DNA of 41,842 nucleotides from Longimicrobium sp. GTDB taxonomy: Bacteria; Gemmatimonadota; Gemmatimonadetes; Longimicrobiales; Longimicrobiaceae. Of the stretch, positions 9,249 through 39,299 are shown in pieces. The position numbers were made by a program, and so were the translations under genes. Position 1 is the stretch's first letter. Every line of letters begins with the position of its first letter. Location: positions 1 through 41,842 of the forward strand of contig DASVWD010000111.1 in the NCBI GenBank assembly GCA_036389795.1, in the 5' to 3' direction. Below the pieces are notes generated by a model. It was given only the letters and a program-made list of their open reading frames with translations, had not been told where the DNA came from and made no database searches.

Positions 9249-9261
9249 GACCGGCCCGAAT

Positions 9262-9370
9262 TCGTAGGGTCGAGGCATGCCTCGACCGGCGGGGGCCAGC
9301 CCGGGCGCGGCAGGCGGCCTCCTGCGCCGATGCCGCCTGTGCTCGGACTCGCATGCTCGCCCCTACGAGA
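9262..9370. repeat. MITE-like repeat with terminal inverted repeats, copy 1
   Basis: TCGTAGGGTCGAG at one end pairs with CTCGCCCCTACGA at the other (12 of 13 positions). A second copy with the same ends, the same CTCGACCGGCGGGGCCAGCC core and the same CGCGTTGAGAAG right flank lies at 39148-39255. This copy sits between the large and FAD subunit genes, so it interrupts an otherwise tight operon. Confidence 0.75.
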
Positions 9371-9414
9371 CACAACGCGTTGAGAAGTCGTGACCCGATC
9401 CTCGGGTGGCGCCG

Positions 9415-10605: not shown

Positions 10606-12108
<1,503 letters not shown>

Positions 12109-12280: not shown

Positions 12281-13132
12281 ATGGCGGAGACGGCCACCGC
12301 CGGGCCCCGGCGGCGAAAGCTCGCCGGCATCCTCGCCGGTGCCATGGCGATCGCCATCGCGGCGTACGTTGTCTACCCGAGACTCGTGAAGCGGGACTCC
12401 GCTCTCGTCGCCAGGATTTCCGGGATGCGCACGATCGAGGCGAACGGCGCGCTGCTCGGCTCGTTCGGGCGCCGGATCGATATTCCCCGGAACACTCCGC
12501 TCCGGGACCTGAAAAAGCACGAGCAGCACATCTACCGCAGGATGAGCTCGCCCTGGCCCTGGCAGAGCGTGAAGCCGTACAAGGTACAGGAGTACACGAT
12601 CTCCAGGACCGATTCGGTGCGGCTCGAGCGGCTGGGGGTGCGCTTCGACTCCGCTTCCGGCGCGCAGGCAGCCGGCGGGGACCAGTCGGCTGCGGGCTAC
12701 CGCATCGTCATTCTCGAGATCGACAACCCCGACGGCCTGGTCGACGAGATCAACGACAGCCTGGCCAGGGCTTCCAGGCTGGTGCGGCGCCTGAGCCGCG
12801 GCGATCCCGAATACCGGATCGTGACGGCCGTCGGCGTGCTGTTCGACCACAGGGCGGAGGTGGTCTCGCGCAGAGAGCTGGATGCGCGGCTGCTGGAGCT
12901 GGCGATCAAGGGCTCTTCCGCGGACCGGAGCACGGTCGGCATCGCGGACGGCGCGATCGTCGGCTACCGGTATGCACGGATCTGCTGGAACGCGGACGGC
13001 GAGGTGCAGGAGCTGGTGACCGACGAGCAGGGGACCGACACGTGTCCTCCCGGGTCGCTGCCGACGCGTGCGTCTCCCGGCGCGGCGAGCTCCGGCCGGC
13101 CGTCGGCGGCGGGAACAGGCAAGGGGCCTTGA
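12281..13132 (+). CDS. Membrane-anchored protein of unknown function
   Basis: The 283-residue protein starts at ATG 12281 behind GCGGAGGAGG. One N-terminal transmembrane helix (LAGILAGAMAIAIAAYVVYP, residues about 15-34) anchors an extracytoplasmic region of about 190 residues with mixed strands and helices (EYRIVTAVGVLFDHRAEVVSRREL), and the tail is Ser/Pro/Gly-rich and disordered-looking. Two cysteines (ICWN, DTCPP) could form a disulfide. I recognise no family. The 172-base gap upstream (12109-12280) contains no gene and no clear signal. The next gene begins seven bases downstream, so the two may be co-transcribed. Confidence 0.7.
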   Translation: MAETATAGPRRRKLAGILAGAMAIAIAAYVVYPRLVKRDSALVARISGMRTIEANGALLGSFGRRIDIPRNTPLRDLKKHEQHIYRRMSSPWPWQSVKPYKVQEYTISRTDSVRLERLGVRFDSASGAQAAGGDQSAAGYRIVILEIDNPDGLVDEINDSLARASRLVRRLSRGDPEYRIVTAVGVLFDHRAEVVSRRELDARLLELAIKGSSADRSTVGIADGAIVGYRYARICWNADGEVQELVTDEQGTDTCPPGSLPTRASPGAASSGRPSAAGTGKGP

Positions 13133-13139
13133 CCCCGCG

Positions 13140-13844
13140 ATGAGCATGAGCCGACCCGACGCGCGCCGGGCGCTGCGATCGCTGCGGGAGGCCGCCCGCG
13201 GGCTCTACCTGCGGCTGCTGCCGCGCCCGGACCACCGGGAGGTCTTCTCGCGCATCTACCGGAGCAACGAGTGGGGCGACCCGGAGTCGGTGTCGGGGCC
13301 GGGCTCCACCCGCGCGCGCGGCGAGGACTTCCGCGACGACCTGGCGGAGCTGCTGGAGCGGATCGGCGCGCGCGTGCTGCTCGACGCGCCCTGCGGCGAC
13401 TTCAACTGGATCGAGCCGGTCGCCGACCGCATGGAGCGCTACGTGGGCGTGGACGTGGTGCCGGAGCTGGTCGAGAAGAACCAGGAGCTCCACGGCGGCG
13501 GGCGCCGGAGCTTCGCCTGCGCGGACCTGACGCGCGACCCGCTCCCCAGGGCCGACGTCGTCCTCTGCCGCGACTGCCTGGTGCACTTCTCGTTCGCCGA
13601 CATCCGGGCGGCGCTCGGCAACTTCCGGGAGAGCGGCAGCACGTACCTGCTCACCACCACCTTCCTGGACACCCGGCGCAACCTGGACATCCGCACGGGC
13701 GGGTGGCGCGAGCTGAACCTGGAGGAGGCCCCTTTTCGCTTCCCGCCGCCGCTGGCCCTGGTGGACGAGAAGTGCACGCACTCGGGCGGCCGCTACCGCT
13801 CCAAGCGCCTGGCCCTCTGGCGCATCGACTCGCTCCCGCTATAG
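13140..13844 (+). CDS. SAM-dependent methyltransferase (class I)
   Basis: The 234-residue Rossmann-fold protein carries motif I as LLDAPCGDFNWIEPVA, an acidic motif II in YVGVDVVPELVEKN, and a motif IV-like ADVVLCRDCLVHFSFADI. The DxPCGDFxW variant is typical of a group of bacterial class I methyltransferases annotated only as generic. The C-terminal part (NLEEAPFRFPPPLALVDEKC) should form the substrate pocket. The acceptor is unknown. ATG 13140 follows the previous stop by seven bases. The gene carries the promoter of the next gene within its last 30 bases. Confidence 0.82.
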   Translation: MSMSRPDARRALRSLREAARGLYLRLLPRPDHREVFSRIYRSNEWGDPESVSGPGSTRARGEDFRDDLAELLERIGARVLLDAPCGDFNWIEPVADRMERYVGVDVVPELVEKNQELHGGGRRSFACADLTRDPLPRADVVLCRDCLVHFSFADIRAALGNFRESGSTYLLTTTFLDTRRNLDIRTGGWRELNLEEAPFRFPPPLALVDEKCTHSGGRYRSKRLALWRIDSLPL

Positions 13845-13896: not shown

Positions 13897-14700
13897 ATGC
13901 GGATCTACGACCTGTCCCAGCCGCTGAACGAGCAGGCGCCGTTCTGGCCGTACTACCCGCCCTTCGAGGTGAAGTACATCAAGCGCAAGGCCGAGCACGG
14001 CGTGAACGCGCAGTACATCATGACCTCGAACCACATGGGCACGCACCTGGACGCGCCGCGGCACTTCCAGACCAGGGGGCTCACCATCGACCAGATCCCG
14101 CTGAACTGGCTGTGCGGCCCCGGGGTGATCGTGGACCTCACCGAGGAGATGGACGAGCTGGCGGTCTACACTCCGAAGATGATCGAGGACCGGGTGGAGG
14201 TGCGCAAAGGGGACATCGTGATCCTGCACACCGGCTGGCACCGCTACGCGCAGTGGGGCGACGAGGCCGACGAGGAGAAGTACATCCACCTGCACCCGGG
14301 GGCGCACCCCGACATGGTGCCGTGGCTGCTGGAGAAGGAGGTGCACATCTGGGGCGTGGACGCGGTGTCGACGGACCACCCGATGGACCTGCCGATCGGC
14401 CGCTTCCTGGGGAAGGGGATGCACGGCCACTGCGACCGGGTGCGGGCGAAGGCGGAGGCCAAGTTCGGCGGGCCCGAGGCGGTGGCGCGGCTCTTCCCCG
14501 ACGAGGACTACCAGCTCACGCACAACAAGCTGTTCCCGCACAACTGCGTGCACATCGAGAACCTGGGCGGCGAGATCAGCGCCCCCGAGCTGCAGAACCG
14601 GCGGCTGATCATCGGCTGCTTCCCCTGGAAGTTCCAGGGCGGCGAGGCGGCCTTCGCGCGCACCGTGGCGTTCGACGGGGAGTGGCCGAAGGAGGTGTGA
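13897..14700 (+). CDS. Metal-dependent cyclase-family hydrolase (kynurenine formamidase / isatin hydrolase type)
   Basis: The 267-residue protein has the cyclase-family signature HMGTHLDAPRHF (HxGTHxDAPxHF, residues about 46-57) that binds the catalytic metal, followed by DIVILHTGWHRYAQWGD and HIWGVDAVSTDHPMDLP, all conserved in kynurenine formamidase KynB, isatin hydrolase and related amidohydrolases. They open lactams or deformylate amides. A role after molybdenum-dependent ring hydroxylation would fit the upstream permease and hydroxylase, but the substrate is not shown. ATG 13897 fits the conserved MRIYDLSQPLNEQAP. Its 3' end is duplicated in decayed form at 16461-16587. Confidence 0.9.
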   Translation: MRIYDLSQPLNEQAPFWPYYPPFEVKYIKRKAEHGVNAQYIMTSNHMGTHLDAPRHFQTRGLTIDQIPLNWLCGPGVIVDLTEEMDELAVYTPKMIEDRVEVRKGDIVILHTGWHRYAQWGDEADEEKYIHLHPGAHPDMVPWLLEKEVHIWGVDAVSTDHPMDLPIGRFLGKGMHGHCDRVRAKAEAKFGGPEAVARLFPDEDYQLTHNKLFPHNCVHIENLGGEISAPELQNRRLIIGCFPWKFQGGEAAFARTVAFDGEWPKEV

Positions 14701-14787
14701 GGGAATGTGGGGAACAAACCGGTACTTCGGGATGCCAACGGAGGTGGGTAGGCGCTGCACCCAGTTGATCTCGACCCTCGAGGTCCA

Positions 14788-16440
14788 ATGCTCGACCGGG
14801 ACGCTCTGATCGAACTCGAAAGGAGTTCTGTTCGCCGACAAGCAGCCGCGCTCGGCCTCACCTATGAAGCTCTTGTTCAGCAACTAGCCGATGCCCGGCT
14901 GTCGGACATCGCTGAGTTGCGGCATCGGCTTATCGAGTTTGGAGGCGATGCGGAGATCGAAGCCCAACACTTCGGCGATGTAGCAACCCGTCTGGAAGCT
15001 GAGCCCGAGTATGTGATCGAAGAGCGACATGACGTCGCGCAGGGCTTGCTGGAACACGCACTCTCAGACCTCCGGGAGTGGCTGCCCCGTTGTCCTGATG
15101 CGATGGCCATGATCCGGCACGACCTATTGGAAGGTTGCATTGCCTCTGACAAGGCGGATGGTAGCCTCGAGTGGCTATCGGATTGTGTGCTGAGCCGCCT
15201 GCACAACATCCAGGTGTTCGTGCCGTACATGGGCGGGTATAATGCTGGCATTACCTCGGATGCCAACCTGAACGTGGTTGTAGTACACCACGGCATCCAC
15301 GATCTGCTGTACGCATCTCTACATCAGGTTGTCGGGTTCGCCACAGAAACCACCGAACAACGAGCCATCGGCATCCGGCGGCTGCGCGGCGCTCCCGACG
15401 ATCTTGCCGCCTGTCTCAAGGCTCTAAGAAGCATTCGAGACATGGCCTGCGGCAGGCAACTCAGGGCCCTGGCTCTCGACTTCACGTTATCAACGGAGCA
15501 GATGCACCTCCTGCACCTGCTCCTCAGAGGCGCGGTGGACTTCATTCTATTTCACGAGTTTGCTCATGTGATCGGCATGATGTTCGAGAATCCTCATTTT
15601 ACTGAACTCGCCTGTGATGAATTTGCGGCCCGAGTCATCGTTGGAACGGGAGACGAGGCGCGCGTTTGCGGAATGGTGGCTGCTCTCCACCTCACGCAGG
15701 GTCTGCTGCATTTCGAAAGAAGAGGTCACCGCTCTACCACTCACCCAGCAATCTCCACACGGATAAAGCACATAGCTGTGATTTTGGACGAGAAAAACGC
15801 CAATCTCAGCAACGCGTTCGACGCCCTTCTTGATGCTCCCACCAGGCTTATGGAAGAGGAGGTGTTCCAAGTGGAGACGACGGAGATCGTCAGGCGCGAG
15901 TTGATCCGGGCCCTTGAAACTGCAACCGATCTGGGGCTCGACGCAGACGACGCTGTACGCATTGGTGCTGCCATCAGCGACGCCGCGATCACGCTACCCG
16001 ATATTTTCGAAGACGCGCTCGTGTCGATCCAGGTTCGTGGAGAAGAGCGTTTCCGAGTGATTCGATTCGACATTGCCGCGGCGCTCAGCGCGGCTGCGAG
16101 TGCAGCCGGAGGTGTAATCAGCGGTGGCGGCGGCTGGGCCATCGGCGCGGCAGTGCTTGCGTGCATCACGGCGCTAAACGGTGTGGCGCGGCCCCTGAGC
16201 CCCACGGAGGGCGTGGTACTGCTCGTACTGCACGAGAGTCCGTCACGCTCGGCGACACGGGACGAAATCGCGGCCGCAGTTGCGCGACAGACCAGAGGAG
16301 TCCCGGGCAGTGATCCAGCTGCCCTCCCGGCCGCACTTCAGTCGCTGCAGGCGCTCGGATGTATCCGTGAGTCGAACGCAACCTTCACCTTGGCCGACCG
16401 TGTTCTGGTGTGGTATAGGAACAGAACACCGTCCCTATAG
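14788..16440 (+). CDS. Predicted gluzincin-like metallopeptidase with Gly-rich hydrophobic segment and C-terminal winged helix-like domain
   Basis: The 550-residue protein is of no family I can name. Residues 256-260 read HEFAH (HExxH zinc motif), and 13 residues later comes ELACDEFAAR (E273, D277), reminiscent of the third-ligand helix in ImmA/IrrE and M48 peptidases. The N-terminal ~250 residues are helical with a VVVVHHGIHDLLYASLHQVV segment. Residues about 430-465 form a Gly/Ala-rich hydrophobic stretch (GGVISGGGGWAIGAAVLACI) that could insert in a membrane. The last ~80 residues (SPTEGVVLLVLHE...LQALGCIRESNATFTLADRVLVWY) look like a winged helix. Its GC content is visibly below its neighbours, and it sits between the cyclase gene and a decayed copy of that gene's end, which suggests recent insertion. 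Confidence 0.7.
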   Translation: MLDRDALIELERSSVRRQAAALGLTYEALVQQLADARLSDIAELRHRLIEFGGDAEIEAQHFGDVATRLEAEPEYVIEERHDVAQGLLEHALSDLREWLPRCPDAMAMIRHDLLEGCIASDKADGSLEWLSDCVLSRLHNIQVFVPYMGGYNAGITSDANLNVVVVHHGIHDLLYASLHQVVGFATETTEQRAIGIRRLRGAPDDLAACLKALRSIRDMACGRQLRALALDFTLSTEQMHLLHLLLRGAVDFILFHEFAHVIGMMFENPHFTELACDEFAARVIVGTGDEARVCGMVAALHLTQGLLHFERRGHRSTTHPAISTRIKHIAVILDEKNANLSNAFDALLDAPTRLMEEEVFQVETTEIVRRELIRALETATDLGLDADDAVRIGAAISDAAITLPDIFEDALVSIQVRGEERFRVIRFDIAAALSAAASAAGGVISGGGGWAIGAAVLACITALNGVARPLSPTEGVVLLVLHESPSRSATRDEIAAAVARQTRGVPGSDPAALPAALQSLQALGCIRESNATFTLADRVLVWYRNRTPSL

Positions 16441-16460
16441 CGTGTCTGCGTTTGAGTTCG

Positions 16461-16587
16461 GAAGCGAGGTCGCTGAAGTTCCAGAACCCGTGGCTGATCA
16501 ACGGCTTCCCCTACGAAGTTCCGGGGCGGCCGGGCGGCCTTCGCGCGCACCATGGCGTGCGACGGCGAGTGGCCGACGGGCCCATGA
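16461..16587 (+). pseudogene. Frameshifted duplicate of the cyclase gene 3' end
   Basis: The DNA from 16461 to the TGA at 16585-16587 aligns with the last ~130 bases of the cyclase gene (about 14570-14700). One frame gives KFQNPWLINGFPYEV, matching LQNRRLIIGCFPWKF. After a frameshift within a G/C run another frame gives ARTMACDGEWPTGP, matching ARTVAFDGEWPKEV, with the stop in the homologous place. GCGGCCTTCGCGCGCACC is identical in both. It is either a duplication made when the metallopeptidase gene inserted, or the stump of a second cyclase paralogue. Confidence 0.8.
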
Positions 16588-16597
16588 CTCTCGTTCC

Positions 16598-17482
16598 ATG
16601 CTGAACAGCCATCCCAACGCATCCGCGCCAGCGCGCCCGCTGAGCGCGGGCCGCATCCGCGAGCTGCTTGCCGCGCTCGAAGCGTTCGGCGGCGACCACC
16701 TGGCGTTCCTGACCACGGGACGCGGCCTTCAGCTGCTCGCGCGCGTACCAATGGCGGCGAACTCACCGAGGTTCCGCCAGCACCCTCGCGCGCACGTGTT
16801 CGGGGCCGAGCCGGGCGCGGTGGTGGAGGACTTCGAGCGCCTGACCTGGCTGTGGAAGCTCACGGACGACTGCTGGAGCGGCGGCGGCGGACAGGTCTGC
16901 GCGCGGGCCCGCATCGACCAGGAGCTGGCGGCCCTGCGGGACCCGGGCGCCCTCGGGGGATGGGGCGTCTTCCAGAACGCGCTGGCGGCGCAGGCGCGGC
17001 AGCTGGAATCGATCAGCGACGCCGAGCTGGCGGCGATCGAGGAGCTCGCGGGCGAGCTGCGGGCGGCGCTCGACCCCGGCCGGAGCCCGGCCCTCCAGGA
17101 GCTGCAGCAGCAAATCCGCGAGATCAGCGAGCAGGACCACGACGCCATCCGGCCGGAAGACCCGGAGGCGCGCGAATGGCTCGCCGCCAACGGCCACGAC
17201 GCGCCCCTGGCCGGCAACCGCTTCGACGAGAAGGCGGAGGCGCTGGAGTTCGTCGAGGAGCTCTACGCGGCTGGCGCGGTGCGGGTGGTGGTCGCCTCGG
17301 AGTGCATCCGCGACGAGCTCGAGCACGGCGGGCCCTACGCCGACGGCCTGCGGGTGCAGCTCCCCGCCGAGCCGCGGCGCCGCGAGTCGGTGCTGGCGGT
17401 GGTGAACCGCGAGGTGGAAGAAGAGGGGTTCGACCCCTACGCCGACACCGGCCAGGAGGCGGTCTTCCTCTGGTGGGACTAG
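16598..17482 (+). CDS. Hypothetical protein, soluble, helical with Glu-rich coiled region
   Basis: The 294-residue protein is of no recognised family. Residues about 15-100 include LLAALEAFGGDHLAFLTTGRGLQLLARVP and LTWLWKLTDDCW; residues about 130-185 are strongly helical and acidic (QLESISDAELAAIEELAGELRAAL, LQELQQQIREISEQDHD), likely a coiled coil. The C-terminal ~90 residues (KAEALEFVEELYAAGAVRVVVAS then AVVNREVEEEGFDPYADTGQEAVFLWWD) look like a compact alpha/beta domain. No signal peptide or membrane segment is seen. The ATG at 16598 lies ten bases after the pseudogene stop, so its promoter is probably within or before the remnant. A GNAT gene follows after 41 bases. Confidence 0.65.
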   Translation: MLNSHPNASAPARPLSAGRIRELLAALEAFGGDHLAFLTTGRGLQLLARVPMAANSPRFRQHPRAHVFGAEPGAVVEDFERLTWLWKLTDDCWSGGGGQVCARARIDQELAALRDPGALGGWGVFQNALAAQARQLESISDAELAAIEELAGELRAALDPGRSPALQELQQQIREISEQDHDAIRPEDPEAREWLAANGHDAPLAGNRFDEKAEALEFVEELYAAGAVRVVVASECIRDELEHGGPYADGLRVQLPAEPRRRESVLAVVNREVEEEGFDPYADTGQEAVFLWWD

Positions 17483-17523
17483 CGAACCCCGCGAGCTGGT
17501 TCTCCCGCGACCTGGAACAACGG

Positions 17524-18066
17524 ATGAACGGGCCTGAGTCTCCGAAGCCACCGAGCCTCGCCATCCGCGAGGCGACCGCCGACGACATTCCCGCCCTGGC
17601 GCGGCTGCACGTCGTCACCTGGAACGACACGTATCCCGGGGTGCGCTCGCCGCCGACGTACGAGGTCCGGGAGCGGCAGTGGCGCGAGGCGTTCGCGGCG
17701 GACGACGGGAGCTGGTTCTGCTTCGTCGTGGAGCGGGACGACGGCGAGCTCGTCGGGTTCGCGAAGGGGAAGCGGTACGCCAGCCCCGACCAGCCGGACT
17801 ACGCGGGCGAGCTGAACAAGATCTACCTGCTGCGCGAATACCAGCGCCGCGGGCTGGGGCGCCGGCTCGTGGGACACGTCGTGCGCCGCTTCCTCGGTCA
17901 GGGCGTCGACTCGATGCTGCTGTTCGCGGACGCGGGGAACCCCTCGTGCGGCTTCTACGAGGCGCTCGGGGGTGAGAAGCTGCGGGAGCCCGACGGCACG
18001 ACCAGCTACGCCAACTACGGCTGGCGCGACCTGCGGCGGCTGGCGACCCTCTGCCCCGTCGAGTGA
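17524..18066 (+). CDS. GNAT-family N-acetyltransferase
   Basis: The 180-residue single-domain protein has the GNAT order: N-terminal LAIREATADDIPALARLHVVTWNDTYPG, a central GELVGFAKG strand, LNKIYLLREYQRRGLGRRLVGHVV with the acetyl-CoA-binding (Q/R)-x-x-G-x-G/A loop, and NPSCGFYEALGGEKL near the end. The W-N-x-T-Y motif is common in the group annotated as amine/phosphinothricin-type acetyltransferases. The substrate is unknown. The start ATG 17524 fits a short leader before the first strand. It lies 41 bases after the preceding unknown gene on the same strand. Confidence 0.85.
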   Translation: MNGPESPKPPSLAIREATADDIPALARLHVVTWNDTYPGVRSPPTYEVRERQWREAFAADDGSWFCFVVERDDGELVGFAKGKRYASPDQPDYAGELNKIYLLREYQRRGLGRRLVGHVVRRFLGQGVDSMLLFADAGNPSCGFYEALGGEKLREPDGTTSYANYGWRDLRRLATLCPVE

Positions 18067-20710: not shown

Positions 20711-21340
20711 ATGGAAAATCTCTCGAACGTGTTTGAAGATTTTGCAGCGGCTTTCGGAGAAAACCCGGAGTTGTGCTTCAACTTCGGCCTCATTGTTCTG
20801 CTTCGGCGGAATCCACCGCTTTTGAGAGCCTTTCTCCGTTGGATCGAAGACTCTTCGGGTCTCCATCTCGACCCCGAGATCACATGGTTGATCTATGGTG
20901 AACGGCAGGTCAACCGCCGACGCCGGATCTTTCCTGATATGGTGCTCGCCTCGCCGACGCTCGAGCTTTGGTTCGAGCACAAGCTCGGCTCCAAGCTGAA
21001 AAAGGATGAGCTCAGACGGTACGTCGAGGAATGTTACCTCCAGATGCACGAGGGCGAGGCCATCCCACTGATTGATCCTGCGGGCTTCTCTCCACTGCCT
21101 GATCGCCCCCGCATCGTCGTATTTGTAATCTCCGGCGTCAACCAAGTAATTCCCGAGGATCTTCGCGAGTGGCAGAAGCAGTTTGCGAAATTGGGGTGCG
21201 GCCTCGCTTGGTGTGGCTCGGCCGGTTATCTACGTTGTCGAGATTTCTTGCCGTATATCAGGTTGGCACTGACAGAGCTCACCGGGTTCGACGCCGTAAT
21301 GGCGGAGCACTTCGTCGGGTGGGTGGCAACGCGATGTTAG
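20711..21340 (+). CDS. Isolated PD-(D/E)XK nuclease-like protein
   Basis: The 209-residue protein shows FPDMVLASPTLELWFEHK, i.e. P75-D76 then E89-H-K91, the PD...ExK active site of restriction-type nucleases, preceded by GERQVNRRRR and followed by the helix KKDELRRYVEEC. The fold order (helix, ERQ strand, PD strand, ExK strand, helix) fits. No partner methylase, helicase or specificity gene is adjacent. The DNA is visibly less GC-rich than its neighbours and third positions are less biased, so lateral gain is likely. ATG 20711 is the first start outside the preceding gene. It may be a degenerate defence or mobile-element remnant, or a stand-alone effector. Confidence 0.7.
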   Translation: MENLSNVFEDFAAAFGENPELCFNFGLIVLLRRNPPLLRAFLRWIEDSSGLHLDPEITWLIYGERQVNRRRRIFPDMVLASPTLELWFEHKLGSKLKKDELRRYVEECYLQMHEGEAIPLIDPAGFSPLPDRPRIVVFVISGVNQVIPEDLREWQKQFAKLGCGLAWCGSAGYLRCRDFLPYIRLALTELTGFDAVMAEHFVGWVATRC

Positions 21341-39048: not shown

Positions 39049-39147
39049 GGCCGGGGCGGGCTCGGGGGGGACCGGAAACAGGTGACTCCGCATCCGATGC
39101 ACGCGCCGGCCGCCGGGTTTATCTCCCTGTGATTTCGATCGGAAGAT

Positions 39148-39255
39148 TCGTAGGGGCGAGGCCTGCCTCGACCGGCGGGGCCAGCCTGTGCGCGATCGGC
39201 GGGGACCTGTGAACGGGCTGCCTCAGTTCGGACTCGCAGGCTCGCCCCTGCGAGA
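39148..39255. repeat. MITE-like repeat with terminal inverted repeats, copy 2
   Basis: TCGTAGGGGCGAG and CTCGCCCCTGCGA form the ends. The body shares CCTCGACCGGCGGGGCCAGC and the flank ACACGTCGCGTTGAGAAG with copy 1 at 9262-9370 (ACACAACGCGTTGAGAAG). It lies between the decayed protease gene and the duplicated-promoter gene. Confidence 0.75.
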
Positions 39256-39299
39256 CACGTCGCGTTGAGAAGCTGGATCAGATCACCCTCCGCACCGCT

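Follow-up and report, generated by a model that had tools for sequence, protein, structure and literature searches.

Lit is a latent zinc protease of peptidase family U49 that cleaves EF-Tu when the Gol peptide of phage T4 is present, and it is carried by the Escherichia coli element e14 (PMC3014915). This element resides in icd, where the lit-type gene adjoins a metabolic gene whose tail is intact and a decayed tail is displaced to the far end; the displaced tail, icdC, covers 216 bp and is 87% identical. A comparable layout is found in a 41,842-nt stretch of the soil bacterium Longimicrobium sp. (Gemmatimonadota; assembly GCA_036389795.1, contig DASVWD010000111.1, positions 1 to 41,842; here called the window), in which the gene for a 550-residue Lit-like protein, the cargo, lies between an intact cyclase-family gene and a second, partial copy of the cyclase 3' end. 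While e14 spans 15 kb and encodes an integrase and an excisionase, the window insert spans 1.8 kb, consists of one gene and has no recombinase. With one case each, the parallel between lit, e14 and icd and the window layout may be a coincidence.

Integration through one-ended homology has been described in E. coli, where it proceeds mostly by a single crossover with a circle: sequenced products carried gene-end duplications of 109-950 bp, and 56 of 60 analysed clones gave the PCR product diagnostic of a duplication (Amarir-Bouhram 2011, PMC3240628). As in the window, a gene end (~100-950 bp) is duplicated around the insert. However, that system employed a laboratory plasmid, whereas the present case is deduced from loci found in nature: a single genome shows it at several genes, and its inserts end near stop codons. 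A further likeness is offered by the effector-immunity loci of the Vibrio cholerae type VI secretion system (T6SS), where an arriving module pushes the 3' end of a gene downstream (PMC5361080). Those are polymorphic toxin loci, for which a process resembling homology-facilitated illegitimate recombination (HFIR) was held responsible, whereas here ordinary genes are left intact and the cargos are diverse.

The two copies of the cyclase tail form a direct repeat (positions 14593-14692 and 16482-16579; 85% identity, E = 2e-24 in a self-BLAST of the whole window), which bears out a sequence-only reading of this DNA, according to which the tail reappears, frameshifted, after the 550-residue HEFAH protein. 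That reading put the extent at ~130 bases; the repeat itself stands, but its clearly alignable part is ~100-105 bp and the longer figure takes in weakly similar edges. The right copy contains a 3-nt deletion and a 1-nt insertion, giving a net frameshift of -2, and TGA at the homologous codon closes both copies, as had been claimed. Of the differences, 10 of 11 fall at codon positions 1 and 2, which together with the frameshift marks the right copy as an older, decayed remnant. The cyclase tail occurs in just these two copies across the 7.5-Mb genome. One complete open reading frame (ORF), that of the cargo, occupies the space between them, and the lower GC noted there earlier is confirmed: 0.594 against 0.716 for the window, with third-position GC at 0.645 for the cargo, 0.99 for the cyclase gene and 0.95 on average for the window genes.

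The cyclase gene was found in all 10 same-genus genomes searched, and close orthologues (81-90% identical) occur in Longimicrobium, Longimicrobiaceae and other metagenome-assembled genomes (MAGs) of Gemmatimonadota. Beyond the cyclase stop codon, the sequence is different in each relative read. In a sister MAG (G007), the intact cyclase gene is followed by an ORF of 178 aa whose start resembles a signal peptide and by a 251-bp second tail of about 90 aa, 92% identical, which is the sole second copy among the relatives' cyclase loci inspected. This copy starts ~250 bp before the stop, compared with ~105 bp in the window, that is, ~150 bp apart; given the other cargo and the other start of the second tail, the layout has arisen at least twice at the cyclase gene. 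A strong hot spot at the cyclase 3' end was considered and rejected, as just two of the loci read, the window and G007, have a second tail. No full-length second cyclase lies downstream at any of the readable same-genus and further public cyclase loci, and the reading of the second tail as an old paralogue remnant thus gained no support. From the proposal of an insertion with a duplicated attachment region, the insertion, the duplicated piece of host gene and the foreign-looking cargo survive; a defined attachment site is unsupported, because the second copies differ in where they start, there is no integrase and most relatives have no second copy. Another small variable segment lies on the 5' side of the cyclase gene: the two genes at 12281-13844, between a transporter gene and the cyclase gene, are missing from this place in G007 and G004, whose transporter gene is directly 5' of the cyclase gene.

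The same layout recurs at other genes. The genome holding the window (G000) is a Longimicrobium-like MAG of 285 contigs, 98.16% complete and 3.75% contaminated, of which 1.31 Mb, about 17% of the genome, was screened for duplicated gene ends. One screen sought the 3' end or 5' start of each gene again within 10 kb, using a simple home-made gene caller that overlooks atypical genes; the other, independent of it, listed every direct repeat of 60-600 bp, at least 84% identical and 0.3-8 kb apart. Many further direct repeats were set aside as dispersed intergenic repeats or tandem paralogues. Five loci, namely the window and four others, show an insert between an intact gene and a partial second copy of its 3' end; the four further inserts measure 1.1-3.3 kb and their copies are 85-99% identical to the host-gene 3' end (Table 1). 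The G007 cyclase gene is the sixth tail locus overall; the window and the five other tail loci all have this Campbell-type layout, with the partial copy in direct orientation. None of the inserted ORFs examined, in the window or in the other inserts, matches a recombinase family. The cargos include a candidate defence pair, HEC-01A/HEC-01B (PADLOC E 7e-165 and 2e-72), at an ATP-grasp locus whose neighbouring genes are present in G009 and whose cargo is not, indicating insertion or loss there. A search of the family for donors of the HEC-01 and pectate-lyase-like cargos returned distant relatives only.

Under the same criteria, 613 kb of G002, G008 and G009 contained no such locus; about 2.3 would be expected at the G000 rate, so the difference is not significant. 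None was seen in 400 kb of G022, a complete genome of another family, and in 150 kb of E. coli the known e14/icd tail was the sole find, apart from repeats of the REP (repetitive extragenic palindromic) type and tRNA repeats. Since the classes of loci were defined after the first examples had been seen, all these counts are descriptive. No description of the pattern in Longimicrobium was found in the literature, of which coverage was partial.

Table 1. Features of the cyclase locus in the window (coordinates on the 41,842-nt stretch) and further loci with a duplicated gene end.
Feature	Coordinates	Strand	Evidence or cargo	Duplicated end
Intact cyclase-family gene, host of the duplicated 3' end	13897..14700	+	PF04199 (Pfam Cyclase), E 8e-39	
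Left copy of 3' tail, functional, encodes ...GEWPKEV-stop	14588..14700	+	self-alignment	
87-bp leader, cyclase stop to cargo start	14701..14787	+		
Cargo, 550-aa Lit-like (U49-type) putative zinc protease	14788..16440	+	NCBIfam and PADLOC matches, low GC	
HEFAH, aa 256-260, putative zinc/catalytic motif	15553..15567	+	aligns with Lit HEISH	
ExxxD, E273-D277, putative third zinc ligand region	15604..15618	+	aligned with Lit	
THPA, aa 318-321, common to Lit 'NTHPA'	15739..15750	+	aligned with Lit	
Hydrophobic Ala/Gly-rich segment, about aa 427-468	16066..16191	+	Kyte-Doolittle peaks 1.45, 1.68	
C-terminal domain, helix-helix-strand-strand, winged-helix-like	16195..16437	+	block pLDDT mostly 53-78, one of the better-scoring parts of a poor model	
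Right copy of cyclase tail, decayed, stop in register	16477..16587	+	net -2 frameshift, position 1/2 differences	
CP_ATPgrasp_2 gene			HEC-01A/HEC-01B; insert GC 0.53	tail 94 bp, 98.9%
Fur gene			pectate-lyase-like protein	tail 133 bp, 97.0%
Molybdopterin oxidoreductase gene			two genes: protein of no assigned family, hydrolase-like by eye, and PEP (phosphoenolpyruvate)-utilising enzyme	tail 90 bp, 86.7%
Prolyl oligopeptidase gene			TPR protein and 96-aa protein	tail 230 bp, 87.4%, 24-nt gap included
Mirror case, FAD/FMN oxidoreductase gene, G000				gene start 81 bp, 98.8%, begins exactly at GTG
Mirror case, small G007 gene			M48 peptidase	gene start 195 bp, 92.8%

At the recent loci the differences between the copies are informative. 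Third codon positions account for 4/4 of them in Fur, 1/1 in the ATP-grasp gene and 13/20 in the G007 cyclase gene, and each Fur tail is followed by its own, distinct strong hairpin (-45 and -37 kcal/mol, 70-nt flanks). Taken together, the third-position differences and the separate hairpins make both tails resemble the ends of functional alleles, one of them imported.

The cargo matches no Pfam family at E <= 1. The NCBIfam Lit model NF007238 matches residues 237-329 (E 6.9e-6), and among the PADLOC models peptidase_U41 matches residues 231-377 (E 3.4e-6) and Lit the same protein at E 2.9e-4. Direct alignment with E. coli Lit, at 30% identity across 91 residues, pairs HEFAH with HEISH, E273/D277 with EREAD and THPA (318-321) with the THPA of 'NTHPA', and HExxH, ExxxD and THPA stand in one order in both proteins. 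H256, H260 and E273 are where the sequence-only reading had placed them; the combination of domains that it did not recognise has found a partial answer, as the protease core is Lit-like. The two proteins differ in that Lit has 297 aa and the cargo 550, with an unrelated N-terminal half and an additional hydrophobic segment and winged-helix-like C-terminus, and in that the identity of ~30% extends over 91 aa only. We read the cargo as a distant Lit relative that has, in addition, an N-terminal helical half, the hydrophobic segment and the winged-helix-like end. The single-sequence AlphaFold2 model is too poor to judge the fold, a gluzincin-type active site or the proximity of H256, H260 and E273 (mean predicted local distance difference test score, pLDDT, of 46.6), as is the one from a two-row alignment of the cargo with the Lit of a viral contig (40.5), and Foldseek with these low-confidence models returned helical noise only and no match at E <= 0.001.

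No real homologue of the cargo was found among 60 relatives, 154 genomes of the order, 346 sampled genomes of the phylum, plasmids, phages, viral contigs (searched twice) and GTDB contigs. Matches in the phylum at E 0.002-0.009 were scattered pieces of 65-118 aa and were taken as chance. The PADLOC peptidase_U41 matches elsewhere in the phylum are short, and nearly all lack similarity to the cargo in phmmer.

Judging from the motifs, the cargo is probably a relative of E. coli Lit and a protease of phage defence, with putative zinc binding and proteolytic activity. As Lit is a latent protease that cleaves EF-Tu when triggered, defence by triggered proteolytic shut-down is the most likely function of the cargo, a view held with moderate confidence. 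The protein would then act like Lit, as a latent zinc protease that, once infection triggers it, cuts a protein essential to the host, conceivably EF-Tu, and halts phage growth. Alternatively, the cargo could be an ordinary regulated zinc protease for stress or for membrane-protein turnover. Proteases with HExxH are widespread, a sensor-regulator could possess such a hydrophobic segment and winged-helix-like end, and no defence genes were identified near the cargo in the window. However, the cargo finds its best family matches in Lit and a candidate-defence peptidase of PADLOC, it is extremely rare and foreign in composition, and another insert of this genome carries HEC-01; such an ordinary role is possible but somewhat doubtful.

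The observations as a whole are best explained, with a probability of roughly 0.55, by single-crossover integration at a gene end of DNA bearing a Lit-like cargo. The incoming DNA would share just the end of the host gene with the chromosome, and one RecA-mediated crossover with a fragment that is circularised, or one-ended in some other way, would generate the intact cyclase gene, the cargo and the second cyclase tail. Freed from selection, this second tail would then have decayed, and like events would have been repeated in G000 with other host genes and cargos. The recurring layout suggests an entry of genes through recombination at host-gene ends; a single crossover is the most likely mechanism, for which we infer the role of RecA and the direction of transfer.

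Several points speak against this explanation. The window copies differ chiefly at the first and second codon positions and show no visible two-allele signature; for that locus alone, a simple duplication could also account for the repeat. Neither a donor nor a relative with the empty site is known for the window cargo, and the insert junctions are those of a MAG assembly. The cargo scores 25.5 bits against a curated Lit equivalog cutoff of 274 (NCBIfam), far too low for an orthologue of Lit, and its similarity is limited to ~90-150 aa surrounding the active site. Why, moreover, do the inserts end so close to a stop codon? The last cargo ORF stops 8-59 nt 5' of the tail copy in six of six tail cases, an outcome that random fragment ends would rarely give and for which the single-crossover model offers no explanation. 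With these gene calls, the chance of a random end lying outside genes and at most 60 nt 3' of a co-oriented stop is 0.018; even a generous 0.12 per end leaves a chance of about 3e-6 for six of six, a figure that takes no account of selection for complete genes or of DNA without use being lost later. It is possible that such selection and loss produced the stop-near ends; that breaks prefer terminators is speculation. The cargo is also co-oriented with the host gene in all six cases, which is not significant alone.

One-ended homology would also serve for HFIR of a linear donor, homologous at the cyclase tail and illegitimate at the far end of the cargo, which would rejoin the chromosome inside the cyclase gene. 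Insert sizes around 1 kb are typical of HFIR, and an HFIR-like process has been proposed for the displaced 3' ends of Vibrio T6SS clusters (PMC5361080). However, HFIR generally deletes recipient DNA of insert-like size and leaves the anchor unduplicated (PMC3240628), and such an origin appears unlikely; as to its share, the duplication screen is blind to HFIR deletions. A tandem duplication, in which the cyclase tail and cargo were doubled and the second copy was lost save for the tail, would also join a cargo end to the middle of a gene. Local rearrangement is indeed possible at the oxidoreductase locus, given that the molybdopterin oxidoreductase gene and the PEP enzyme gene lie on one contig in G008, 13.8 kb apart. 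Yet the copies at recent loci differ synonymously, the 3' flanks differ, as the two Fur hairpins illustrate, the cargo is missing from every relative searched and no second cargo copy was traced, leaving this process a slim chance.

An integrative element with a specific site in the gene 3' end, its integrase lost or provided in trans, would reproduce the layout of e14 in E. coli exactly, with icd restored and the old tail displaced as icdC. Against this, no integrase is present at any locus, the tails of a single gene, the cyclase gene, start variably (~105 and ~250 bp before the stop), no fixed attachment core is shared between the window and G007 insertions, the target genes are unrelated, and two cases duplicate gene starts instead; an element of this kind is very improbable.

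The screened contigs and the window contain other repeats and atypical genes. On G000 contig C115, at about 50-65 kb (L160, L161), a gene start is present in four copies, ~86-95% identical and spaced across 11 kb, in a cluster that looks like an Rhs/polymorphic-toxin array whose ends are displaced. On contig C4 (L131), an Rhs core is duplicated (11635-11963 and 13284-13612), with an orphan tip. In L114, an internal piece of a methyltransferase gene (16701-16875) is repeated downstream (17466-17642; 177 bp, 96%), the two pieces enclosing an ORF on the minus strand that looks like the precursor of a lanthipeptide. Another repeat, dispersed, intergenic and ~110-130 bp long, has ends that are palindromic (CGTAGGGGCGAG...CTCGCCCCTACG); its copies, 80-91% identical, lie at 9260-9387 and 39146-39272 of the window and at 11233-11340 and 12173-12281 of L063. 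The window also holds a second low-GC gene (20714-21340; GC about 0.56-0.6, third-position GC 0.66), 3' of a DinB-like gene, with no family match and no duplicated gene end flanking it.

Bacterial genomes are known to gain and lose single genes, defence genes included, with no mobile element in sight. Several inserts of this genome keep a signature of their entry, the second copy of a host-gene end, which makes the route testable, and a simple screen follows for any genome: a search for partial gene-end copies a few kb downstream. It is conceivable, although quite unlikely, that Longimicrobium-type genomes hold recombinase-less cassettes, addressed to host genes by a 70-250 bp copy of the 3' end and moved by the host RecA. 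In that event the stop-tracking ends would reflect the making of the cassettes, for instance breakage at terminator hairpins, and the cassettes would provide a general route for gaining defence and other genes with the target gene undamaged. The Lit-like cargo, for its part, would extend a type of phage-defence protease known from e14 to a distant phylum and to another domain arrangement.

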